Assembly: GCF_000300815.1 (NCBI RefSeq)
Contig: NZ_AMRX01000003.1
Coordinates: 1 to 64,000 of the forward strand
Direction: 5' to 3'
Length of the DNA: 64,000 nucleotides
Origin: Gayadomonas joobiniege G7
Lineage (GTDB): Bacteria; Pseudomonadota; Gammaproteobacteria; Enterobacterales; Alteromonadaceae
Both the position numbers and the translations under genes were made by a program. Under the pieces are notes generated by a model, which had not been told where the DNA came from, did no database searches, and saw only the letters and a list, made by a program, of their open reading frames with translations. Of this stretch, positions 6,163-43,349 are shown piece by piece. Position 1 is the first letter of the stretch; each line of letters begins with the position of its first letter.

Positions 6163-6939
6163 CTAAGGGCTTTTGTTGGCTTTGGCCAGCAAGGCTTTTA
6201 AATGTTTTATCGGTATCGCATAAGTCATTCCACTTGGTTCTTTTAATAAGTTTTCTTTATTACCCTGAACAAAGGTTTTATTTACAACAGCAATGACTTC
6301 ACCACTTTGACTTAAATACACAGGACTGCCGCTATTTCCAGGGTATACGGTGGCGTCTAACTGGTAAATCAAATATGGGTCTTTGAGCCGCTTGATAGCC
6401 GCTGCTGTCAATTGTCCTGAATTGGGCAGTGGTATTATTAAAGGAGAGTGAGAAGAGACTATTCCTCTGTGCGTCACAGGGTATAAACCGAGTACAAATC
6501 CCATCGGAAAGCCGGTTAAAGCGATTTCACTGCCTTCCGCAACGAGGTGATTGTCATTGTATAAAGTCACAGGGGCAAGTGTCTGATCAGCAAGCCTTAA
6601 CAATGCTAGATCATAAGTTTTGTCAAAGTTAACCAAAGTAACTTGCTGGTAGTTCGCGTGAGCACCTTTGCCCACAAACACAACTAAGCTTTGCCCCTCT
6701 TTTTTTTCTGGCTTTAAAATATCTTGGATAACATGATAATTAGTTGCGATTAAGCTGCCATCACCGACAACAAAACCTGTCCCAGTGAGCTTAGCTCGTG
6801 GCTGGCTGAGCGGCGAATAAAACCCAATCCCGACAATAGAGGGTTTAATTTGTTGAATGACATCCATTAAAGTATTTGCTGATAATGCACGTGGTTGCAC
6901 AAAGAAAATAAAAAATAATAAAGCGATAACTAGTTTCAT
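6163..6939 (-). CDS. Secreted trypsin-like serine protease upstream of prsK-prsR
   Basis: A 258-residue protein with an N-terminal signal sequence (about residues 1-21, ending ALSA) and a trypsin-like protease fold. The catalytic triad reads H69 (TNYHV), D110 (YDLALLRL) and S204 (GNSGSP, 201-206). There is no PDZ domain, so it is a minimal HtrA/Tex-like form acting in the periplasm or envelope. Position at the head of the prsK-prsR operon suggests it could act on envelope or PEP-CTERM proteins, or on the sensor input to PrsK; that is inference. Divergent from the ElyC-like gene with 52 bases between start codons, which therefore contain both promoters. Confidence 0.85.
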   Translation of the reverse strand: MKLVIALLFFIFFVQPRALSANTLMDVIQQIKPSIVGIGFYSPLSQPRAKLTGTGFVVGDGSLIATNYHVIQDILKPEKKEGQSLVVFVGKGAHANYQQVTLVNFDKTYDLALLRLADQTLAPVTLYNDNHLVAEGSEIALTGFPMGFVLGLYPVTHRGIVSSHSPLIIPLPNSGQLTAAAIKRLKDPYLIYQLDATVYPGNSGSPVYLSQSGEVIAVVNKTFVQGNKENLLKEPSGMTYAIPIKHLKALLAKANKSP

Positions 6940-8101: not shown

Positions 8102-8950
8102 ATGAAAAAACTCAGAAAGTTGGCTGAAAAACCAATTATTGGCCCTATTGTGAAAACGTTTGTTAGGTTATTTGCAGATCGTAAAGTGCACTCGATTAGC
8201 GGACACTTTTTTAAATATTTAAAACCAGAATTAGCGATTGATGAAGGGCTTAAACAAGCGACCTTCAGAGTAAGGCATCAAGTATATTGTTCTGAACTCA
8301 ATTTTCTGCCGATTTCGGAAGATGGCCACGAAAAAGATGAGTTTGATAAGCACTCTATCCATAGCGTGATACGTCACAAAGAAAGTGGCGATATTATGGG
8401 AACCGTACGTTTAGTGCTTTCGTCAGACCCATCCGAAAAGCTACCAATAGAAGCGTTTTGTTTAAACTCGATTGACAATAAAGAAGTTCACCCAAACGAC
8501 TTTCCGAGGGAAAAGATTTGTGAGATCTCGCGGTTAGCTATCCCTGAAAATTTCCGACGTCGTAACGTCGATAAACATAATGGCGCTGCGACAGGTGCTA
8601 TTAACGAAAGCACATACTCTGAAGCCGAGCTTAGGTGTTTTCCGTTTATTGCGGTAGGGCTGTATTTAACTTGTGCTTCAATTGCCAACCAAAAAGGCAT
8701 AGAGCACTGTTTTGTAATGATGGAGCCTAGATTAGCTCGCAGTTTAAAGTTTGTTGGTATTTCGTTTAAACAGATTGGCCCGATAGTTAATTTCCATGGC
8801 CGTCGCGCGCCCTATTATATCAGCCACGCGATGCTGATGCGTGAACTCAGCCCTGGCTTCCGTCGGTTGATGAAAAAAATCGAAGCAGCCTTGTCAAAGC
8901 AAGACAAAGTTAACAACTCTAGTAGTCAGCTTAGCCAAGCTGCCGTGTAA
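8102..8950 (+). CDS. PEP-CTERM/exosortase-associated N-acyltransferase (LuxI/FeeM-like)
   Basis: I start this 282-residue protein at the ATG at 8102; a GTG at 8039 would add 21 poorly conserved residues. The core resembles the exosortase-associated acyltransferase family (TIGR03694-like), related to acyl-homoserine-lactone synthases and to FeeM/NasY N-acyl amino acid synthases. The residues that define LuxI-type enzymes are recognisable: R56/R58 in FRVRHQVYC, the acidic pair D79 and D82 (DEFD), R103 in GTVRLV, and E141-x-x-R144 in EISRLAIP. Expected chemistry is transfer of a fatty acyl chain, from acyl-ACP or acyl-CoA, to the amine of an amino acid or related acceptor. The acceptor is unknown. 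The ThiF-like gene follows after 41 bases, so the two are probably co-transcribed and act in sequence. Confidence 0.85.
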   Translation: MKKLRKLAEKPIIGPIVKTFVRLFADRKVHSISGHFFKYLKPELAIDEGLKQATFRVRHQVYCSELNFLPISEDGHEKDEFDKHSIHSVIRHKESGDIMGTVRLVLSSDPSEKLPIEAFCLNSIDNKEVHPNDFPREKICEISRLAIPENFRRRNVDKHNGAATGAINESTYSEAELRCFPFIAVGLYLTCASIANQKGIEHCFVMMEPRLARSLKFVGISFKQIGPIVNFHGRRAPYYISHAMLMRELSPGFRRLMKKIEAALSKQDKVNNSSSQLSQAAV

Positions 8951-8991
8951 CCCGAACGCTTATTTTTTGCTTAGTGTGAAAGGACCTTATT

Positions 8992-9852
8992 ATGTTCAAT
9001 TACGAAAATGCCTTTTCTCGAAACATTGGTTGGTTGACTAATACCGAACAGCTGAGTCTACAGTCCAAAAGGGTTGCAATTGCCGGGGCTGGTGGGGTTG
9101 GCGGTGAGCATATAGTGACTTTAGCTCGTTTAGGTATCGGTGCATTTAATATTTCTGATTTTGATGTTTTTGAAGAGCACAACTTCAATCGCCAAGCTGG
9201 CGCTTTTGTTTCCACCTTAGGGCGGGACAAGATGGCGGTAATGAAAGAAGTCGCATTGGACATTAATCCTAATTTAAACGTCAAAACGTTCCCGACAGGG
9301 ATTGACAATAATAATGTGGATGAGTTTTTAGACGGTGCGGATGTTTATATAGATAGTTTGGATTTTTTTGCCCATCAAGCCCGAAAACTTGTTTATCAAA
9401 AGTGCCAAGACAAAAATATCCCAGTAATAGTGGCTGCGCCGATAGGAATGGGTGCTGCAACCCTCTGTTTTACTTCTGACAGCATGGGGTATGAAGAGTA
9501 CTTTAGGTTTGCAGACTGCCGCAACGAAAATGAGGAGCTAGTGAAATTCTTAATTGGATTGAGCCCATCGTTAATGCAAAAAAGCTATTTGGTTGATCCC
9601 AGCACCAGCGACTTTTTAGCTAAAAAAGCACCGTCACTACCGATGGGAGTCAAGCTCTGTGCTGGTGTGGCTGCGTCATTTGCCGTTAAGATATTGCTAA
9701 ACAGAGGACAGCTGGTGACCGCCCCGCACGGTCTACACTTTGACGCGTATAAAAATAAAATGGTTAAAACTTGGCGCCCATGGGGAAACCGTAATCCAAT
9801 CCAAAAACTCGTGTTTATGATAGCTAAAAAAGTTGTATTGAAAGCCAATTAG
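8992..9852 (+). CDS. Stand-alone ThiF/MoeB/HesA-type adenylyltransferase
   Basis: A 286-residue E1-like enzyme. The nucleotide-binding loop GAGGVG spans residues 32-37, followed by the acidic strand end SDFDVFEEHNFNRQ. R67 and K80 match the ATP-contacting Arg and Lys of MoeB, and D121 or D124 matches its essential Asp. The CxxC zinc pairs of MoeB/ThiF are absent, and there is no rhodanese domain. Family members adenylate a C-terminal carboxylate, usually of a ubiquitin-like sulfur carrier, but in MccB of a peptide. No ThiS/MoaD-like protein ending in GG is encoded nearby. AAGGACC-like ribosome binding sequence precedes the ATG. The basic hydrophobic C-terminus (about 268-286) may be a membrane-facing helix. 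Substrate unknown; the acyltransferase product is the attractive candidate. Confidence 0.82.
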   Translation: MFNYENAFSRNIGWLTNTEQLSLQSKRVAIAGAGGVGGEHIVTLARLGIGAFNISDFDVFEEHNFNRQAGAFVSTLGRDKMAVMKEVALDINPNLNVKTFPTGIDNNNVDEFLDGADVYIDSLDFFAHQARKLVYQKCQDKNIPVIVAAPIGMGAATLCFTSDSMGYEEYFRFADCRNENEELVKFLIGLSPSLMQKSYLVDPSTSDFLAKKAPSLPMGVKLCAGVAASFAVKILLNRGQLVTAPHGLHFDAYKNKMVKTWRPWGNRNPIQKLVFMIAKKVVLKAN

Positions 9853-9934: not shown

Positions 9935-9950
9935 TGGCACAGGGTGTGCA
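9935..9950 (+). promoter_or_regulatory. Sigma-54 (-24/-12) promoter of the PEP-CTERM gene
   Basis: TGGCAC at 9935-9940 and TGCA at 9947-9950 place the invariant GG (9936-9937) and GC (9948-9949) exactly ten bases apart, as in the RpoN consensus TGGCAC-N5-TTGCA; only one core base differs. The PEP-CTERM gene starts 55 bases further on, leaving room for a short leader. PrsR, a GAFTGA-type activator, is encoded in the same window. In other PEP-CTERM bacteria PrsR and RpoN control such genes. The activator's upstream binding site was not identified. Confidence 0.8.
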
Positions 9951-10937: not shown

Positions 10938-13700
10938 ATGATGAAACGCCAACTTATTTCGATCGCGTTAGCTTGTTCGCTTGCAGCATGTTTCGAGTCG
11001 TCTACGCCAGAAGAATTGATCGCTCAAGCCCAAAAAAATGTCTCGCAAGGTGAAGTTGACGAGGCTGTGATCCAATTAAAAAATGCAATTAGCCGAGCAC
11101 CTGAAAATACTCAAGCCAGATTTTTATTGGGCAGAATTTATTTTAATCAAGGCAGTTTTTTGTTTGCTGAAAAAGAATTAAGTAAAGCCTATCAAACAAT
11201 CAACCAAAATCCACAAGCTGCTCTCTTGCATGCAAAAAGTTTATTTTATACCGAAAGTTATACTGAAGCGGAAAAGTTATTTTCAAAAATAGAAGAGGCT
11301 GACAATCAGTTAGATATAGGAGAAATCAACTATTATCGATTTTTAATCAGTCGCCAAAATAGAAGCGATCAAGCTTCTAAGCAATATATTGCGCAAGGGC
11401 TACAAAATAGCAGCAGCACTTATCAACCACTATTTAGAGTTCATCAACTGGTTGCAGAGCAAAAAGTTTCCGATGCGCAGAATGAGATTGCTAATGCCAA
11501 AACAAAGTTGTCTAAAAATATTGAATATTTAAAATTAGCGGCCTATGTTGCTAACCTTAACCAAGATACACAAAAAGCGGCTGATGCTTACCAAGCATTA
11601 TTTGAACTTATTCCAAATTACCCTCAAGCATTTATTTTATATGCAGACGCATTAGTACGTAATCAGGATTTTGATAAAGCCGAAAAACAGGTTGATAAAC
11701 TCTTAAAGGCGTATCCTAATCATTCATACAGTAACACCTTAAAAGCTGTTATCTTGTTTGAAAAAGAAGACTATCAACAGGCAAAACAGTTTGCCGAAGT
11801 TGCCTTGAGTCGGGGCAGTAAAAATCCGCAAACCTTGGTGGTTGCAGCAGTTTCAAATTTCAAATTAGAAAAGTTTGAGCAGAGTTACGAGAACTTTAAA
11901 AATCTTTCAGCCGTAAGCCGTTTAACACCTGAATTGCAACGCATGTATACAGCTGTTCAGTTAAAAATGGGCTATGACGATGAAGCAGTGAGTGCGTTAT
12001 TAGGAAAAGATTCAGTTAGCGAGCAGGATTTGCCTTTTTTCTTATCTGTAACATCGCAAGCGCTTCGTAACGGTCAATACAGTGCGGCACAAAAAATGTC
12101 TGATAAGTTTAAGTCACTAAACCCAGACAACCCGCAGTCTATGGCACAACTAGGCTTGTTAGATTTTTTAACTCGTCAAGATACCCAAAAATTAGAAGAT
12201 GCTGAAAAAATGTCGGACAATGCCAGCATTAGAGCTGCACTTGCTAAAGCTTTGTACACAAAAGGTGATTTTAAAAAACTCTCGGAGTTAGCAGCGGAAT
12301 GGTTAGTCGACGAACCAGATAATATGATTGCGCTCAATATGGCAGCGCTCAGTGCTTTTTCATTACAAAAAACTGCCGAAGCAGAACAATACCTGGACAA
12401 AATTAAAACACAAGATCCCGAAAATCCACTCTATTTAGTCTATACGGCTTTCAACGAAATTAAGAATGGCGAAACAAAAAGCGCAACTCAGCGTTTAAAC
12501 TTGCTGCTTGACAAGTATCCGGATAGCTTAGGTAGCTATAACTATTTTGTGAGTGGGTATGCTGCAATGGGGCAACTTGATCAGGCAGTTGAGGTGCTAA
12601 AGCGTAAATATCAAGCACAGCCGGATAGTGGTATTGTTTATTTTGCCTACCTGCGCAGTTTAATGCTAAACGGCAAAAGCACCGATGCCCTCGAGCTGCT
12701 GGCTAAAAGCAAAGCAGAGTTCAAACAAAGCGAGTTATATTGGTCATCATTGGTTGAAGCTTATATCAATACGTCTCAATTTGATAAAGCTCAATCTAGT
12801 CTGCAAGATTGGGTTAAACAAATGCCGAATCAACGACAGGCTCATAGCCGGTTAATTAGTTTTTACGAAGTTTCAGGAAAACCAAATGACGCTTTAGGTG
12901 CTTTACAAAATGCTTTCCACAGATTTCCTGATGACGTTGGTTTTAAGATTAAACAAATTGAATTATTGATATCAATTAACCAAAGCCTACAAGCGAGTAA
13001 CGAGATAGAGGCTTTAGAAAAAGTGTCCGATACCGAAGCAATTGGCTTGCTGAAAAGCAAACTTGCGCTTGCGAAAGCAGATTATTCGGATGCGCTCCGG
13101 TTGGCACTTGATAGTTACAATAAATCCTCTAATCCGGGATTGGCGGTTGAATCAGTTTATCGAGCTTATTCTGGACTAGAGCAAGATGACAAAGGCTATC
13201 AATTTTTAAAACAGCACTACTTATCAGAAAAGTCATTTTCGAACAAAATGGCAAGGGTATTTGCAGCGCAAGCAATACAGCATGACCCTGACATAGCAAC
13301 GAGTGTTTATAAGTATTTAGCGTTAAAAAACAATCGAGATGTTACAAGTCTAAATAATGCCGCTTGGTTGCTTAACCAGCAGGGACGAACCGATGAAGCG
13401 TTAAAATTTGCGCTACAAGCAAAAGAATTGACAGAAAGTAAAAACGCAAACGTATTAGATACTCTAGCCACTATTTACATGTCTCAAAAAAACTATCAGA
13501 AAGCAAAAGAGACGGCTGCTCAAGCATTTCATTTAGAACCAGAAAATGAGCAGATTGCATTAGCATATATAGCGACGTTAGAAAAATTCCCCAAGGCCGA
13601 TCTCGTTGATGTACTGGGAGAGCTTTATAAGCTTGATTCAAACAAGGTGCGCCAAAAAGTACAGTCACTTGCAAAAGCTAGGGGGATAGAGTTGAGGTAA
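10938..13700 (+). CDS. prsT: XrtA/PEP-CTERM system TPR lipoprotein PrsT
   Basis: A 920-residue lipoprotein: signal peptide with lipobox LAAC, lipidated Cys at residue 18, then almost entirely tetratricopeptide repeats (for example EAVIQLKNAISRAPENTQA near residue 42 onward). Length and context match PrsT (TIGR02917-like). TPR lipoproteins of this type resemble BcsC/PelB/AlgK scaffolds that join inner-membrane synthesis to the outer-membrane exit, so a periplasmic scaffolding role is likely. It is the first gene of the long plus-strand EPS operon and follows the terminator at 10790, so a promoter must lie within 10820-10937. No clear one was recognised. AGGATTAAAGG supplies ribosome binding. 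A second ATG directly follows the first. Confidence 0.92.
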   Translation: MMKRQLISIALACSLAACFESSTPEELIAQAQKNVSQGEVDEAVIQLKNAISRAPENTQARFLLGRIYFNQGSFLFAEKELSKAYQTINQNPQAALLHAKSLFYTESYTEAEKLFSKIEEADNQLDIGEINYYRFLISRQNRSDQASKQYIAQGLQNSSSTYQPLFRVHQLVAEQKVSDAQNEIANAKTKLSKNIEYLKLAAYVANLNQDTQKAADAYQALFELIPNYPQAFILYADALVRNQDFDKAEKQVDKLLKAYPNHSYSNTLKAVILFEKEDYQQAKQFAEVALSRGSKNPQTLVVAAVSNFKLEKFEQSYENFKNLSAVSRLTPELQRMYTAVQLKMGYDDEAVSALLGKDSVSEQDLPFFLSVTSQALRNGQYSAAQKMSDKFKSLNPDNPQSMAQLGLLDFLTRQDTQKLEDAEKMSDNASIRAALAKALYTKGDFKKLSELAAEWLVDEPDNMIALNMAALSAFSLQKTAEAEQYLDKIKTQDPENPLYLVYTAFNEIKNGETKSATQRLNLLLDKYPDSLGSYNYFVSGYAAMGQLDQAVEVLKRKYQAQPDSGIVYFAYLRSLMLNGKSTDALELLAKSKAEFKQSELYWSSLVEAYINTSQFDKAQSSLQDWVKQMPNQRQAHSRLISFYEVSGKPNDALGALQNAFHRFPDDVGFKIKQIELLISINQSLQASNEIEALEKVSDTEAIGLLKSKLALAKADYSDALRLALDSYNKSSNPGLAVESVYRAYSGLEQDDKGYQFLKQHYLSEKSFSNKMARVFAAQAIQHDPDIATSVYKYLALKNNRDVTSLNNAAWLLNQQGRTDEALKFALQAKELTESKNANVLDTLATIYMSQKNYQKAKETAAQAFHLEPENEQIALAYIATLEKFPKADLVDVLGELYKLDSNKVRQKVQSLAKARGIELR

Positions 13701-13707
13701 TTTGGTT

Positions 13708-14802
13708 GTGTTGGATCAGCGCAAGCAGCAAGCCGAGCCTAAAGTAGAGGTTGAAGTCGTCTCAAACAAGAGCGACTTCTTCATGATATATCGTCAAGCT
13801 AAAACGTACTTAACCTATAGTGTTTTCACGAGTATCGAGTGGTTAGAAACTTTCACGAGCCAACTTGATGATGCCTTGTTTTTGGCTTTTCGGCGAGATA
13901 AACAAATCGTAGGTTTAGCGTTATTGGTGAATAAAAAAGACTTTTGGCGTTCAGCAGGTGACTGTTGGTTTTTAAACAGAGCAGGGTGCACAGAGATAGA
14001 TCAAATCTGGCCAGAATACAACAACTTAATTTATGCCAAAGATTTTGAAGCCCAAGTTTGGCATGCTTTTTTGGGGTATTTTGCGGCCAATAGAGCTCAA
14101 CGTTTGGTTGTCGGATTAACACCTGCTATTCACGTACTCGAGGGATCGAATGAGTTTATTATTGAAAAAAATATTGTCAGCCCGAGCTTTTGGTTAGATT
14201 TAAAACCTGAATATATAGAGGTAGACTGCTTATTAAAAAGCTTTTCGCGCAATACAAGATCACAAATTAGACGGGCATTAAAAAAGTGTGAAGCCATTGC
14301 TGAATTAAATGTTGAGAGGGCTACTACTGAGAGCGAAGCTCAGCTCTGGTTTGAACAAGCGGGGCGCTATCATATGCAAAGATGGTCTGATAGCGGTTTT
14401 AAAAACCCTCGTTTTGTTGAGTTTCATAAAAACTTAATCAATAAATTGTTTGCCGTCGATAAAGTTGATCTACTTAAGGTTTGTCTGGGTAAAACCACTT
14501 TAGCCATTTTATATTGTTTACGGGATGGCACTACGGCCCGATTTTATTTGAGCGGTATTAATTACCACCCAGATCTAAATTCGATCAAACCTGGGATTTT
14601 ATCTCACATGATGGCGATCCAGTTTTTTTCGGCACAAGGCCTCAGTGGTTATGATTTCATGGCAGGGGAAAACCGATATAAAAAATCTTTAAGCAGTCAG
14701 CAGGGAGCGCAAATTCTTTATTCAGTACGTAAAAATAATGTATTCCAGCGACTGATAGTGAGCGCCAAAAAATATAAAAACAAGTTAAATGGAAATAGTT
14801 GA
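13708..14802 (+). CDS. FemAB/GNAT-like acyltransferase (BioF2-like)
   Basis: A 364-residue protein with a double-GNAT, FemAB-like pattern. The central FSRNTRSQIRRALKK stretch resembles the R-x-x-I-R/K-x-A motif of FemAB-related transferases, and the second half ends in the typical YDFMAGENRYKKSL block. I prefer GTG at 13708, with GAGG ten bases upstream; TTG at 13702 is the alternative. No signal peptide, so it acts in the cytoplasm, probably moving an acyl or aminoacyl group to a sugar or lipid-linked intermediate. It follows prsT by seven bases. It is distinct from the canonical XrtA FemAB protein at 20400, so this locus has two such transferases. Confidence 0.7.
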   Translation: MLDQRKQQAEPKVEVEVVSNKSDFFMIYRQAKTYLTYSVFTSIEWLETFTSQLDDALFLAFRRDKQIVGLALLVNKKDFWRSAGDCWFLNRAGCTEIDQIWPEYNNLIYAKDFEAQVWHAFLGYFAANRAQRLVVGLTPAIHVLEGSNEFIIEKNIVSPSFWLDLKPEYIEVDCLLKSFSRNTRSQIRRALKKCEAIAELNVERATTESEAQLWFEQAGRYHMQRWSDSGFKNPRFVEFHKNLINKLFAVDKVDLLKVCLGKTTLAILYCLRDGTTARFYLSGINYHPDLNSIKPGILSHMMAIQFFSAQGLSGYDFMAGENRYKKSLSSQQGAQILYSVRKNNVFQRLIVSAKKYKNKLNGNS

Positions 14803-14804
14803 AC

Positions 14805-17342
14805 ATGCCCGAAAACACAAAAATAATAATACCGCTGGAGTTTTTAGGTACAAATAGCGATGAGGTTTGTGGTTTTTCTTTGCCTTTTAAACAAGGTGTT
14901 GTCGCAAACAGCGAATATATTCACCTGTTGGACCGTACAGGACAGCCTCTACCACTCTCTGTTAAAGTTCTCACTGTTTGGCCCGATGGCAGCTACAAAA
15001 ACGTCTTATTTTTCTGCTTTCAAGCCTCAGCGAGTCGACATAATACATATTCTTTAATAGTAGACACAGATATTAAAAAATTATCGGCCGATAAAAAGTT
15101 TAATCCGGTAGAAAAAATCGCTGGCATAGAGGGGATCTGGCGGCTTAATGAAATCAGTTTGACCACTGCCAGTGGCGACAAGCCGGTGGCCATTTTTACA
15201 GACAAACAGATTGAAACAGATGCATTGAGCAAAAATTTCAACTTCCAAGGCGAGCTAAAAACGCACTTGGTAGAGCCATTAAAAATTAGCGTTAAAGGGA
15301 AGAGTTTTTTCTATAATGGCTTGACGGAGTTGGAAGTTAGCATTGTAAACCCTAACCCAGCAGAGCATGATAACGGGTTGTGGGATTTAGGAGACGCAGG
15401 TGCAATTGAACTTGCGTCATTTGACATTAGCTTTCAACTATTACAGCAAGGTAATCACAGACTACAAGTTAACGAACAAGCTAATATTGCTGATGGTGAA
15501 AATAAAAATGCTCAATTTGAGCTACCTGAAGGACGTCTAGAGCAGTATGCCAGCGGTGGGGAAAACTGGCAGTCACCCGTTCATTTGAATAAATATCGTC
15601 AAATTAATTATAAAAAAAATGGTTTTGCGGTATTTGCTGGAAACAATCTTGTAAAAACAGGCAAGCGAGCTGGATTTAATGTGCAAATTGGTGATGGTTT
15701 TAATTTAACCATGGCACAATTTTGGCAGAATTTCCCTGCAGCGGTAGAGCTTTCAGAGGGCTTAATCAAATGTCAATTTTTTAAACAGTTAGCCAGTGCT
15801 CAATACGAGATTTTGCAAGGAGGCGAGCAAAAAACGTTTAAATTTAGTATCTATCCAAAACATCAAAATGCCAGCATCACATACTTTAATTCAAAACAAG
15901 TGCTAGGTGAGCACACTTCTGAATGGATTGATGAATCGGGGATCTTGCTACCCACTTCATTACCATTGTCACCAGTTGAGCAACTGATTCAATTGGGCAT
16001 AAATGGCGAGCAGAATTTTTTTAATAAACGTGAAGTTTTAGATGAGTATGGCTGGCGAAACTTTGGGGAGCTATACGCTGATCACGAGGCGCGTGGTTAT
16101 CAAGGCAATGACATTTTTGTTTCTCATTATAATAACCAGTATGACCCAATATACGGTTTTTTACGCCAGTGGTTAAGAAGTGGTGAAATGGCTTGGTTAA
16201 CCTTAGCACAAGATTTAGCACAACATGTAAAAGATATTGACATCTATCATACGATAAATGATAAATCCGAATATAATCAGGGACTTTTTTGGCATACAGA
16301 TCATTATCTGCCAGCTGAAACTGCGACTCATAGAACCTACTCAAAATATCATACGCAAGGCGCATATATGGATCATGCTGGCGGCGGCGGGCCAGGCGGG
16401 CAGCACTGTTATACGAGTGGTTTAGCTGAGCACTATTTATTGACCGGAAATATTGAATCAAAACAAACCGTGTTGGCATTAGCGGCTTGGATAGAGGCTA
16501 TTTATGATGGCTGTGGTGGAATACTTGAATGGATATTGGCACTAAAACAATCTAAACAAGCAGGCCGAAAAAATCTTTTTAACGGCCATTATCCGCTTGA
16601 CCGAGGAACTGGTAACTTAATTAACGCATATTTAGATGCGTACCTTGTTAGCAGCGATCTCCAATATTTGCAAAAAGCGGCTATGGTAATACGGCAAACC
16701 ATACACCCAGCAGAAAGCGTGGACGAAAGACAGTTAAGCGATGTTGAAAATCATTGGTTTTACACTGTGCTTTTGCAAGCTGTTGGTCGCTTTTTATATA
16801 TTAAAACTAAAAATTGTGCACAAGATAGCGATTTTTATTATGCACGAGATGCGTTACTCAATTATGCTCAATGGATGTTGGTGCATGAAACACCTTATTT
16901 AGACAAGCCCGACATTCTAGAATACCCCAACCATACTTGGACAGGGCAAGAGATGCGAAAAGTGCAAGTATTTGTATGGGCCGCACTTTATGCAGATAAC
17001 TTAGATTTAAGATCACATTGTTGGCAAAAAGCGCTCAGCTTTTCCCAGCGAATTGCGGCCGATTTAGCGCAAACAACTGAAACCCAAGATACTCGAATTT
17101 TAGCGTTATTAATGCAGAATCATGGCTTTGTAGAATATTTTGAACAGAATGAATTTCCACCTATTAGCAAACCTCGGCAGACTTATGCAATTAAAAAGTG
17201 GTCTAAGGCGGTTTCAGGTCGCTACGTAGTTAGTGAATTTTGGCATAGGTTAAAAAAACTCTCCATTAAACGAGAAGTACACTGGCTGGCTAAACGGTCA
17301 TCTAAAATCGAAAAAATATTAAAAAAAGCAAGGATTGTATGA
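14805..17342 (+). CDS. PcRGLX/YetA-like large protein (polysaccharide lyase-like)
   Basis: An 845-residue protein without a signal peptide. The first 100 residues, including LPFKQGVV and VKVLTVWPDGSYKNVLF, look like the N-terminal barrel domain of the PcRGLX/YetA group (PL26 rhamnogalacturonan lyase relatives). The middle (about 430-620) has aromatic-rich helices and a striking glycine run with histidines (HAGGGGPGGQHCY) typical of the alpha/alpha-barrel part of that group. ATG at 14805 is preferred over TTG at 14799. It begins two bases after the previous stop and its own stop overlaps the next start (ATGA). Family members cleave uronic-acid-containing chains outside the cell, so a cytoplasmic-looking member inside an EPS operon is odd. 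It could edit lipid-linked intermediates. Assignment is by recollection of motifs only. Confidence 0.6.
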   Translation: MPENTKIIIPLEFLGTNSDEVCGFSLPFKQGVVANSEYIHLLDRTGQPLPLSVKVLTVWPDGSYKNVLFFCFQASASRHNTYSLIVDTDIKKLSADKKFNPVEKIAGIEGIWRLNEISLTTASGDKPVAIFTDKQIETDALSKNFNFQGELKTHLVEPLKISVKGKSFFYNGLTELEVSIVNPNPAEHDNGLWDLGDAGAIELASFDISFQLLQQGNHRLQVNEQANIADGENKNAQFELPEGRLEQYASGGENWQSPVHLNKYRQINYKKNGFAVFAGNNLVKTGKRAGFNVQIGDGFNLTMAQFWQNFPAAVELSEGLIKCQFFKQLASAQYEILQGGEQKTFKFSIYPKHQNASITYFNSKQVLGEHTSEWIDESGILLPTSLPLSPVEQLIQLGINGEQNFFNKREVLDEYGWRNFGELYADHEARGYQGNDIFVSHYNNQYDPIYGFLRQWLRSGEMAWLTLAQDLAQHVKDIDIYHTINDKSEYNQGLFWHTDHYLPAETATHRTYSKYHTQGAYMDHAGGGGPGGQHCYTSGLAEHYLLTGNIESKQTVLALAAWIEAIYDGCGGILEWILALKQSKQAGRKNLFNGHYPLDRGTGNLINAYLDAYLVSSDLQYLQKAAMVIRQTIHPAESVDERQLSDVENHWFYTVLLQAVGRFLYIKTKNCAQDSDFYYARDALLNYAQWMLVHETPYLDKPDILEYPNHTWTGQEMRKVQVFVWAALYADNLDLRSHCWQKALSFSQRIAADLAQTTETQDTRILALLMQNHGFVEYFEQNEFPPISKPRQTYAIKKWSKAVSGRYVVSEFWHRLKKLSIKREVHWLAKRSSKIEKILKKARIV

Positions 17343-19428: not shown

Positions 19429-20410
19429 AGTTAAATTTGTTTTATCGATAGATACAGAAGAAGAGTGGGATTGGTCTGGTGGCTTCCCTGAACAAAACTG
19501 TTCAGTGAATAACATCCAGCAGTTGCCTGATTTTCATGCTTTTTGTCAAAGTTTAGGGGTTAGGCCCAGTTATTTTGTCGACTATGCCGTTGCAGACAAC
19601 CAGCAAAGCGCTGCTTGCCTAAAAGAGATTTTAGCATGTCAAGATAGTGAGCTAGCTGCCCATCTTCACCCTTGGTGTAATCCACCTTATTATGGCTCGA
19701 CGAGAGAAAAAGAATCACACGTTGTCAACTTGCCATTGCACCAGGTCGCTGAAAAGTTAAAACAGTTAACTGAAAAGTTGAGCGAAGCTTTTAACCGTCA
19801 GCCCAAAGCATTTAGAACTGGGCGCTGGGGGATTAACGGAGAGGTTTTAAAACTCTTGAGTGCGCAAGGTTATACATTAGATTCAAGTGTATACCCGTTT
19901 TATCAACATAAATATTTTGATTGCCGCGGTGCACCCATCGAACCCTATTGGCCTGACTGGAAAAACCCGAACCGGTCGGGTAATCAACGCGAAATAATGG
20001 AACTGCCGGTATCTGTTGGTTTTAATCGAGATGACTTTGTCCAAGGACAAAAACTGTATGAAAAGCTCGCTGCTGATTGTTGGCGTTGGTTTAGACCCGT
20101 GGGTCTGGCATGGCATCTGGGGTTATTAAAAAAGCTCTATATGTGTCCGGAGCTTGCAACTGGCGCACAAATGATCGAGCTCGCTGATAAATTACTGCAA
20201 AAAAACATAGGTATCATTCATATGTATATGCATAGTTCAAGTTTATTAGCAAATGCAACCGGCTTTATGAAAAAAGGTGAAGATTCAGTTGTTCTGAAAA
20301 GTCGAATCGCTGAGTTGATAGCCCATTTAAACAAGGTCGCAGAGGTTGATTTTTGTACCATTAGCGAAGCGGCAGATCACTCAAATAAGGAACTGCTAAA
20401 TGGAAATTAA
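19409..20410 (+). CDS. WalW-like polysaccharide deacetylase
   Basis: A 333-residue NodB/CE4-type protein. The metal-site start reads LSIDTEEEWDW, followed by ELAAHLHPW as the metal His motif and FRTGRWG and LDSSVYP as later family motifs. The DTEEEWDW form is that of the WalW subgroup rather than of the standard XrtA deacetylase at 43364. I choose ATG at 19409, which has AAAGG at a usable distance inside the previous gene; ATG at 19397 lacks it. The gene overlaps the GT4 gene by 20 bases. No signal peptide is visible, so it may act on cytoplasmic intermediates. Likely removes N-acetyl groups from the EPS; substrate not known. Confidence 0.75.
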   Translation: MNKTKPKVKFVLSIDTEEEWDWSGGFPEQNCSVNNIQQLPDFHAFCQSLGVRPSYFVDYAVADNQQSAACLKEILACQDSELAAHLHPWCNPPYYGSTREKESHVVNLPLHQVAEKLKQLTEKLSEAFNRQPKAFRTGRWGINGEVLKLLSAQGYTLDSSVYPFYQHKYFDCRGAPIEPYWPDWKNPNRSGNQREIMELPVSVGFNRDDFVQGQKLYEKLAADCWRWFRPVGLAWHLGLLKKLYMCPELATGAQMIELADKLLQKNIGIIHMYMHSSSLLANATGFMKKGEDSVVLKSRIAELIAHLNKVAEVDFCTISEAADHSNKELLNGN

Positions 20411-21443
20411 AAAAGCGAGCCCGAGTGACCAGTTCGCTTGGGACGAGTATGTAAATAAACACCCGCAAGCAACCGCTTATCATTTATTTGGCTGGGGACT
20501 GGCAGTGGCAGCCAGCTATCAGCATACGCCAATTTATTTAATGGCTTATCAAAATGACGCAGTGGTTGGTGTGCTGCCTTTAGTCGAATTCAAAAAACCT
20601 CTGTTCGGTAAACACTTATCCAGTTTACCCTTTTGTGATTTGGGGGCTGTTTTGGCTGACAGTACAGAGATCTCAAGTCAGTTACTGCAAGCTGCGCAAC
20701 AGATAATGCAACAACAACAAATTAAAGAGCTTGAATATCGCGCAAGTGAGGTATCGCCAGACGAAGGGATAGATATGACTGAGCGCAAAGTTAGAATGTT
20801 ATTAAATTTGCCCGATAGCTCACAAGCACTATGGGATGGTTTTAAATCAAAACTTCGCAGCCAAATTCGTAAAGCGGAAAAGAATGGGCTCACTGCACGG
20901 GTTGGTCATGATAGTGATTTGCTCGACGGTTTTTACCAAGTTTTTTGTCGCAATATGCGTGAATTAGGTTCTCCGGTCCATAGCCGCTGTTGGTTTGAAC
21001 AAATTTTGAAGCACTATAAAAATAATATTTTTATCGTTAATGTTTATGCAAACGGAGAAGTAGTAGGTGGAGGGATAGTCCTATATACATCCTGCTGCGC
21101 CAGTATTCCATGGGCGTCTACGTTGAGTAAATTTAATCGTTTAGCTCCGAATATGCTGCTTTATTGGCGATTATTGGAAGCGGTCGCGGATGCTGGTATA
21201 ACAACATTTGATTTTGGGCGCTCTACTTTTTCGCAAGGGACTTACCGTTTTAAAAAACAATGGGGTGCGCAACCCGAACTGTTAAATTGGCAAACCATGG
21301 ACAATGCGGGTAGCTGGCAAATTGATCAGGCGAGTGGACAAAGTGGGCGATTACGAGCAACGGTAGAAAAAACTTGGCAACGTCTACCACTCCCTCTGAC
21401 TTGTTGGGCCGGCCCTAAAATACGGAAGTATATAAGTTTATAA
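20400..21443 (+). CDS. FemAB family XrtA/PEP-CTERM-associated protein
   Basis: A 347-residue FemAB-like transferase matching the exosortase-A-associated subgroup (TIGR03019-like): HLFGWGLAV near the start, KSKLRSQIRKAEKNG in the middle, VFCRNMRELGSPVHS, and the FDFGRSTFSQGTYRFKKQWG block near the end. FemAB proteins transfer amino acids from aminoacyl-tRNA to peptidoglycan precursors; in EPS loci they may aminoacylate sugars, which is inference. It overlaps the deacetylase gene by 11 bases and precedes the amidotransferase gene by 15. Confidence 0.85.
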   Translation: MEIKKASPSDQFAWDEYVNKHPQATAYHLFGWGLAVAASYQHTPIYLMAYQNDAVVGVLPLVEFKKPLFGKHLSSLPFCDLGAVLADSTEISSQLLQAAQQIMQQQQIKELEYRASEVSPDEGIDMTERKVRMLLNLPDSSQALWDGFKSKLRSQIRKAEKNGLTARVGHDSDLLDGFYQVFCRNMRELGSPVHSRCWFEQILKHYKNNIFIVNVYANGEVVGGGIVLYTSCCASIPWASTLSKFNRLAPNMLLYWRLLEAVADAGITTFDFGRSTFSQGTYRFKKQWGAQPELLNWQTMDNAGSWQIDQASGQSGRLRATVEKTWQRLPLPLTCWAGPKIRKYISL

Positions 21444-41828: not shown

Positions 41829-43349
41829 CTATTGAGTTTGCTCATTGAAAGATTCATTGGCAATTTTGTCAGCTAAAAAACTGGCTTCTTGTAAAAGCCT
41901 TTCAATGATCTCTACGTCATTTGTGTCGGCTGGCAAAGGTGTTGATATGACGATTCTAAAGCCGCTATTACTTTGACCTGTTAACGTATTAATGGTTTGT
42001 AGCAATTTAGTTTTTATCGCCGAGGCACCAGCGAATACATTGATCTGATACCAATCGGCCACTATCCGACGCTCACCCATTGGAGACGTAATATAACTTA
42101 AACGAATATTTCTTGTTGAGCTAATGGCTCTTTGTTCTTGGCTGATCAGGCTCCACTTGTTTTCGGCATAAAGTTTTTGCAAGCCAGAGACTAACTCTCC
42201 GTCGCTATTATTCACGTATTGAGCGATAAGCACTTCAAATTCGAAGCCATGCTGCTTCTTATTGAACAAATAAACTCGATCGGCTTTTGAGTAATCAACC
42301 GCTAGTGCTGATGCGCTTTTATCGTGATTGCTTGTGTTAAAAGTTAATGGGATTAAAAGATCAGGTTGTGCGCTAGCCAGTTTTTGCAGCCAGCCCCATT
42401 GTAATAACATTAACCCGATTAATAATGCCGCAACAGACATCAGGCTGCTCACTTTAAAGTTAATAGCTGGGTGCCGCGACGTATCTTGATTTTCTGGTGA
42501 AGGGGCTGCTTCTGACTGCATCGCGCGGCCAATGAAGAGCAGTAAAATAAGCACAAAACAATAAAAAAACCATCCATAAATTAGGTGGTCAGCGCCAGCA
42601 GCATACTCCATATCACTTAAATGGGCGATTCCGATAATACCATAAACTCTGATCCCGTTCGCCAAAATAGGAACGACAAAAGACAGAAAAATAAAGCCGA
42701 TTTTACGAGCTGTACTGTGCAAATGAATGTGCGCGTACAAGCAGCCAAATACAATAGAGACAATAAAAAAACTAATTCCTGAGCAGGCTTCAGCGACTAA
42801 AAATCGTCCTGCTGGAATCTCTATATACAGACCATTAACATAGGTGGCAATACCAGATAGGTTTAATAAAAAAACCGAGATCGTTGCTGCAATTTGTTGT
42901 AAATAGGGAATTAAAGCTTCACCGACCGGAATTGCAAAAAAACTAAAAAATAATGGAAAAGCGACTTTTAGAGCGCTTTTTACGCCGAATAAACTAACAA
43001 AAATAAGCGGAAAGAAAGAAAACGTCGCTAAATGCATCAGTAGACCAATATCACCCACGACGGCAAAAATATATACAGCGATAATGGGCAAACCTAATAA
43101 TGCAACGCTAGCGCTAGGTTTGATATCTGATTGCAGAAGCAGTTGACGTTTCCGGTACAGCAAAAAAAGCACAATCGGAATAACAAACAAGCAGTGATTA
43201 AATATTTCCGATGTTACCCAAACTTGGTAAGCAGACATCAGCCCTTGATGAAAGACAAGGCTCCAGCATAACAGCAAAATAATCAGCGTCAGATCGAATT
43301 TATTCGAAATAAAATTAACTCGTGTGCTTTTGGGGGCCGATGCTGCCAT
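41829..43349 (-). CDS. xrtA: Exosortase A fused to EpsI
   Basis: A 506-residue inner-membrane protein. Residues 1-275 form the polytopic exosortase, with proposed catalytic C189 (AEACSGIS), R234 (NGIRVYG) and H255 (ADHLIYGW). Residues about 300-506 are a periplasmic EpsI-like domain after one membrane span, seen as MLLQWGWLQKL and later the ADWYQINVF block. XrtA recognises PEP-CTERM tails and is thought to cleave and transfer the protein, in the way sortases do. EpsI is often separate but fusions are known. It is encoded between the polysaccharide deacetylase and the second flippase. The substrate visible here is the protein at 10005-10766. Confidence 0.93.
   Translation of the reverse strand: MAASAPKSTRVNFISNKFDLTLIILLLCWSLVFHQGLMSAYQVWVTSEIFNHCLFVIPIVLFLLYRKRQLLLQSDIKPSASVALLGLPIIAVYIFAVVGDIGLLMHLATFSFFPLIFVSLFGVKSALKVAFPLFFSFFAIPVGEALIPYLQQIAATISVFLLNLSGIATYVNGLYIEIPAGRFLVAEACSGISFFIVSIVFGCLYAHIHLHSTARKIGFIFLSFVVPILANGIRVYGIIGIAHLSDMEYAAGADHLIYGWFFYCFVLILLLFIGRAMQSEAAPSPENQDTSRHPAINFKVSSLMSVAALLIGLMLLQWGWLQKLASAQPDLLIPLTFNTSNHDKSASALAVDYSKADRVYLFNKKQHGFEFEVLIAQYVNNSDGELVSGLQKLYAENKWSLISQEQRAISSTRNIRLSYITSPMGERRIVADWYQINVFAGASAIKTKLLQTINTLTGQSNSGFRIVISTPLPADTNDVEIIERLLQEASFLADKIANESFNEQTQ

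Follow-up and report, generated by a model that had tools for sequence, protein, structure and literature searches.

Acyl-oxazolones are made by an N-acyl amino acid synthase (NAS) together with a ThiF-like cyclase and a flavin-dependent oxidase (FDO), as described for OxzAB, TyzACB and TrzAS in two reports (PMC10404671, PMC12856293). According to these, TyzB and TrzS cyclise N-acyl amino acids in an ATP-dependent manner; on N-acyl-Trp, TrzS cyclises first and desaturates afterwards, and when O2 is limiting a cyclised, non-oxidised intermediate builds up. In the same account, cyclisation by TrzS is abolished by the D217A substitution, at an aspartate that a comparison to the ThiF of E. coli had singled out; alcoholysis of oxazolones is reported as well (PMC12856293). 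Clusters combining NAS, ThiF and a nitroreductase have also been studied in Thalassotalea, Massilia and Stieleria, where open-chain acids were the only products and no oxazolone was observed (PMC12479983). In a separate line of work, NAS genes were linked to exosortase (Craig 2011, as cited in PMC7293339 and PMC11072679), and the role of NAS in exosortase genomes has been a standing question ever since. Disruption of an exosortase-type NAS in Methylomonas led to the loss of a polysaccharide band, an experiment that included complementation (PMC11072679).

The stretch of DNA analysed here, hereafter the window, comprises 64,000 nucleotides of Gayadomonas joobiniege G7 (contig NZ_AMRX01000003.1, positions 1 to 64,000) and contains an XrtA/PEP-CTERM locus in which a NAS gene is followed by a ThiF-like gene. 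We favour, with a probability of about 0.57, the reading that these two genes are an acyl-oxazolone module of the locus and that the ring of their product is saturated. The principal features are:

6163..6939, - strand: trypsin-like serine protease (Pfam Trypsin_2; homologue in 30/47 loci)
8102..8950, + strand: NAS, an N-acyl amino acid synthase-type acyltransferase (TIGR03694 exosort_acyl; FeeM/LuxI fold), 282 aa
8992..9852, + strand: ThiF-like protein, an E1/ThiF-like adenylyltransferase (PRK08223/NF006077) and probable ATP-dependent N-acyl amino acid cyclase, 286 aa
10005..10766, + strand: PEP-CTERM protein of the floc_PepA family, likely an exosortase substrate (NF033554, 184 bits, cut-off 80)
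10938..13700, + strand: PrsT, the XrtA/PEP-CTERM TPR protein (TIGR02917, 362 bits, cut-off 312; homologue in 35/47 loci)
41829..43349, - strand: exosortase A with a C-terminal EpsI domain (TIGR03109, 282 bits, cut-off 208; TIGR02914)

Both open reading frames of the pair were confirmed, 41 bases apart on a common strand, in agreement with the original prediction of two neighbouring genes, and no Rfam model matched around them. Besides the genes listed, the locus holds an XrtA-associated ATPase, a PrsR-type regulator, PrsK, a FemAB-type protein and an amidotransferase. The PEP-CTERM gene is close to the pair in many relatives, and the trypsin-like protease (6163-6939), on the opposite strand, is likewise a conserved part of the neighbourhood. 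A sigma-54-like site (TGGCAC-N5-GTGCA, 9935-9950) lies about 55 bases upstream of pepA, the PEP-CTERM gene; sites of this kind are no commoner in the window than in shuffled sequence. Proteins of the Acetyltransf_6 (FemAB-like) type are encoded at 13702-14802 and 20400-21443, only the second of which passes the XrtA FemAB model TIGR03019, and an 847-aa protein at 14799-17342 has a weak match to the PcRGLX N-terminal domain and to nothing else. Many relatives have a gene for a patatin-like lipase upstream of NAS (e.g., L053:12880-13713), which was considered as a third partner; it has a homologue in 14/47 loci, yet is absent from the host genome, and was rejected.

The NAS scores 252.2 bits against TIGR03694 in a profile search (curated cut-off 111.95) and matches the Pfam families Acetyltransf_5, FeeM and Autoind_synth; the exosortase that TIGR03694 presupposes in the genome is the XrtA at 41829-43349. 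Its predicted structure (pLDDT 81) matches LasI, TofI, RpaI, BjaI and FeeM in the PDB, with 2g0b and AHL synthases among the top fold matches. The LuxI-type residues listed in the original prediction fared well with one exception: R58, D82, R103, E141 and R144 are unchanged in 43/43 relatives and D79 is kept in 42/43, but R56 is unconserved. The FeeM/LuxI fold and the core acidic and arginine residues of a FeeM-type enzyme are accordingly both present. The host genome has a second FeeM/GNAT-like gene (contig C2, L064:8901-9641), which stays under the TIGR03694 cut-off at 83 bits and whose neighbours look like arginine biosynthesis genes.

The ThiF-like protein falls well within NF006077/PRK08223, an uncharacterised ThiF-like family (398.4 bits, curated cut-off 266), matches Pfam ThiF (PF00899), and has its nearest named relatives in Catenovulum (77% identity). 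Its predicted structure (pLDDT 78) resembles AclA, ThiF, MccB, PaaA and MoeB, AclA (9egb) being the top fold match, and the closest solved relative by sequence is TcdA, an enzyme that likewise spends ATP on closing a ring within one molecule, at the amino-acid carboxylate of t6A. Twelve residues (G32, G34, G35, G37, D56, D58, N64, R67, Q68, K80, D121 and D124) are unchanged in 43/43 relatives, which bears out the predicted retention of the ThiF/MoeB ATP site, including R67 and K80. The ThiF-FDO fusion families PRK14851 and PRK14852 score 287 and 214 bits against the protein, and the Rv1355c (TrzS) model 62 bits. The latter is less than the canonical ThiF models reach (86-96 bits), which counts against a cyclase. 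The Asp of the ThiF family, through which the TrzS residue can be equated with one in the host protein, aligns with D124. The protein combines a complete E1 adenylation site with a gene position next to an N-acyltransferase gene, as expected of an oxazolone cyclase, and its similarity to PRK14851/14852, the existence of a fusion, the FDO partner of its relatives and the genomic context make this assignment probable.

The association of the two genes extends well beyond this locus. Among 326 genomes of the order, evenly sampled and with NAS and ThiF counted when over their cut-offs, 77 carry exosortase, 53 NAS, 38 ThiF and, among the NAS genomes tested, 10 FDO. The exosortase, NAS and ThiF sets are strictly nested: all 53 NAS genomes have an exosortase, 38/38 ThiF genomes (21 genera) have NAS, and the 24 exosortase genomes without NAS are also without ThiF. 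NAS and ThiF are separated by 200 nt or less in 20/38 genomes and lie within 5 kb in 35/38, the remaining three ThiF genes being on contigs without NAS. The count of adjacency across genomes, which the original prediction had proposed as a check, is therefore far above chance, and the pairing is not a chance one; the linkage p-values are very small, indeed too small because genomes were treated as independent. The proposed tie to exosortase holds as well, although its NAS half was already known (Craig 2011), and in a wider sample exosortase is found in 41/43 ThiF genomes. A plasmid of Nitratidesulfovibrio vulgaris (NC_008741.1, L145:5068-8037) encodes FeeM, ThiF and FDO in one 989-aa protein (WP_011787321.1), which is annotated only as a ThiF family adenylyltransferase and adjoins PEP-CTERM genes; the union of three domains in a single protein is strong evidence that they share one pathway. 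Taken with FDO, the nesting of exosortase, NAS and ThiF suggests an ordered pathway whose last step is optional. On a Bdellovibrio plasmid (AP029178.1, L146:5977-6852) a PRK08223-type ThiF has as neighbours several ABC transporter genes and a protein of 388 aa with no NCBIfam or Pfam match, and no NAS is annotated nearby.

The optional component is the oxidase. A profile built from six FDOs that adjoin or are fused to PRK08223-type ThiF, which would miss an unrelated desaturase, matched nothing in the whole host genome, the neighbourhood of the pair included, so that the adjacent or fused oxidase of the Oxz/Tyz/Trz pathway has no recognisable counterpart here. An FDO elsewhere in the genome was likewise rejected, the two nitroreductase-family proteins found being small, at 234 and 197 aa, and unlinked. 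Four of the five FDOs scanned clearly match the FDO half of Rv1355c (TrzS) and one does so weakly. Strong FDO matches occur in 12/43 ThiF genomes and are missing from 31/43, the host genome among them; three of these 31 are less than 90% complete, and a few ThiF genomes (e.g., G463) have weak, unlinked matches only. Within the order sample, and among the NAS genomes tested, all 10 genomes with a strong FDO match are ThiF genomes, and none of the 15 NAS genomes without PRK08223-type ThiF has one; in the loci examined, FDO, where present, adjoins or is fused to this ThiF.

A single loss of FDO was rejected on the basis of the ThiF tree, on which the FDO state changes about nine times, with at least five changes forced by well-supported branches. 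The contrast can be seen even between close relatives, as Catenovulum agarivorans has FDO and C. maritimum lacks it genome-wide, their ThiF proteins being 91% identical. A ThiF that degenerated after FDO loss can also be discarded, since the active site is unchanged in 43/43 relatives. Because the ATP-site residues are kept in all 43 ThiF sequences whether FDO is present or absent, the enzyme appears to work without a desaturase, which would fit the order of steps in TrzS.

Both reactions of the pathway that we propose, acylation and cyclisation, are modelled on those of homologues. The FeeM/LuxI-fold enzyme (8102-8950) would produce an N-acyl amino acid by acylating an amino acid on its amino group with a fatty acyl moiety, and the ThiF-like enzyme (8992-9852) would then adenylate the free carboxylate with ATP. 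Attack by the adjacent amide oxygen, with release of AMP, would yield a 2-alkyl-oxazol-5(4H)-one. Since the host genome is without FDO, the ring should stay saturated, and with a ThiF that is apparently functional in the absence of a desaturase the expected course is acylation, adenylation, intramolecular closure and a saturated oxazolone. The candidate products of XrtA loci would thus be acyl-oxazolones, with the saturated form expected in the majority of these genomes. Acidic or alcoholic extraction hydrolyses or opens oxazolone rings, so that such a product would be missed.

The fate and role of this azlactone are speculative. It could be an end product with a structural likeness to acyl-homoserine lactones; alternatively, it could act as a reactive acyl donor whose ring is opened by a nucleophile of the envelope or the exopolysaccharide. 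Saturated azlactones hydrolyse readily, and for this reason the compound may be of little use as an end product. Also unfavourable to a ring-shaped product is the finding of open-chain acids alone for the Thalassotalea, Massilia and Stieleria clusters (PMC12479983). We consider it quite unlikely that the saturated acyl-oxazolone serves specifically as an acyl-aminoacyl donor that lipidates or anchors exopolysaccharide or sorted PEP-CTERM proteins, a role that, if true, would amount to a carboxylate-activation route to surface lipidation.

A related but distinct proposal is that the ThiF-like enzyme converts the N-acyl amino acid into an adenylate or short-lived oxazolone, in which activated form it is coupled to a second molecule of the envelope, whether an amine, a sugar, a lipid or a PEP-CTERM protein. 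This is close to the two-step acyl-amino-acid conjugation of the original prediction, of which the activation step stands, in that ThiF homologues use ATP on N-acyl amino acids, but not the coupling, the known reaction being an intramolecular cyclisation. In its favour, the E1-like activation chemistry would be identical, oxazolones can undergo alcoholysis (PMC12856293), the absence of FDO leaves a saturated ring, genes for exosortase, PrsT and PEP-CTERM proteins are linked to the pair, and the polysaccharide band of Methylomonas is lost, with complementation, on disruption of an exosortase-type NAS (PMC11072679). However, homologues form the ring without an acceptor, and the FDO-less loci have no consistent transferase or acceptor gene beyond the common XrtA neighbourhood; we regard coupling as an unlikely, if credible, alternative to the saturated oxazolone.

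That an unrelated or diverged desaturase encoded elsewhere replaces FDO, giving an unsaturated oxazolone or a dehydro-amino acid, is very unlikely. The two further nitroreductase-family proteins of the host genome are the candidates for such a role, but their small size and lack of linkage speak against it, as do a profile that is silent in this genome and strong in 12/43 ThiF genomes, and FDO-less loci that show no consistent replacement gene. Highly improbable, too, is an MccB-like activity, in which the ThiF-like enzyme would adenylate the C terminus of a peptide or protein, such as one set free by exosortase, and would merely be co-regulated with NAS: the structural similarity to MccB, PaaA and AclA and the nearby PEP-CTERM genes could be read in this way, but a NAS-ThiF-FDO fusion exists, and this ThiF is confined to NAS genomes (38/38) and absent from the exosortase genomes that lack NAS. 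Finally, a misplaced ThiF/MoeB-type sulfur-carrier or ubiquitin-like activating enzyme is hardly credible despite the shared superfamily, given that, just as originally predicted, the protein has no zinc Cys pairs (no CxxC in its sequence) and no carrier partner nearby (no ORF of at least 40 aa whose product terminates in GG or has no more than two residues after it, in the whole 64-kb window), that the canonical ThiF, in the thiamin operon (L003), and TcdA (L002) are encoded elsewhere in the host genome, and that the linkage to NAS is steady.

The pair probably belongs among systems whose chemistry, NAS with a ThiF-like cyclase and FDO, has been published for OxzAB, TyzACB and TrzAS, and the original view of an undescribed system has to be given up to that extent. 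OxzAB of Pseudoalteromonas rubra (described by de Rond 2021, via PMC10404671 and PMC12856293) likewise joins an N-acyltransferase to a ThiF-like cyclase to make acyl-oxazolones, but OxzB combines cyclase and FDO, whereas the ThiF of the host stands alone in a genome without FDO. TyzACB/TrzAS of Mycobacterium tuberculosis share with it the LuxI/FeeM-fold acyltransferase, the ATP-dependent ThiF-type cyclase and, by ThiF-family alignment, the adenylation-site Asp of TrzS; they differ in including FDO and in being actinobacterial, with no exosortase context described in the available text of these reports (PMC10404671, PMC12856293), and the ThiF domain of TrzS is distant in sequence from the host protein. 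The thalassotalic, kyonggic and stieleriacine acid clusters, Proteobacteria included, also place NAS beside a ThiF-like adenylyltransferase/cyclase, but those with ThiF have in addition a nitroreductase (desaturase) and their products are open-chain dehydro compounds (PMC12479983). With the exosortase-linked NAS of TIGR03694 (Craig 2011 via PMC7293339; ExoAT, PMC11072679) the locus has in common the acyltransferase family and the XrtA/PEP-CTERM context, to which it adds a ThiF partner that goes unmentioned in PMC7293339 and PMC11072679. The PRK14852 fusion of Nitratidesulfovibrio vulgaris (WP_011787321.1) similarly unites FeeM and ThiF in a PEP-CTERM locus, though as a single protein that includes FDO, as opposed to two genes without it. 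What is new here is that an oxazolone chemistry already known is probably represented by an FDO-less pair, with a complete ThiF, that is linked to exosortase.
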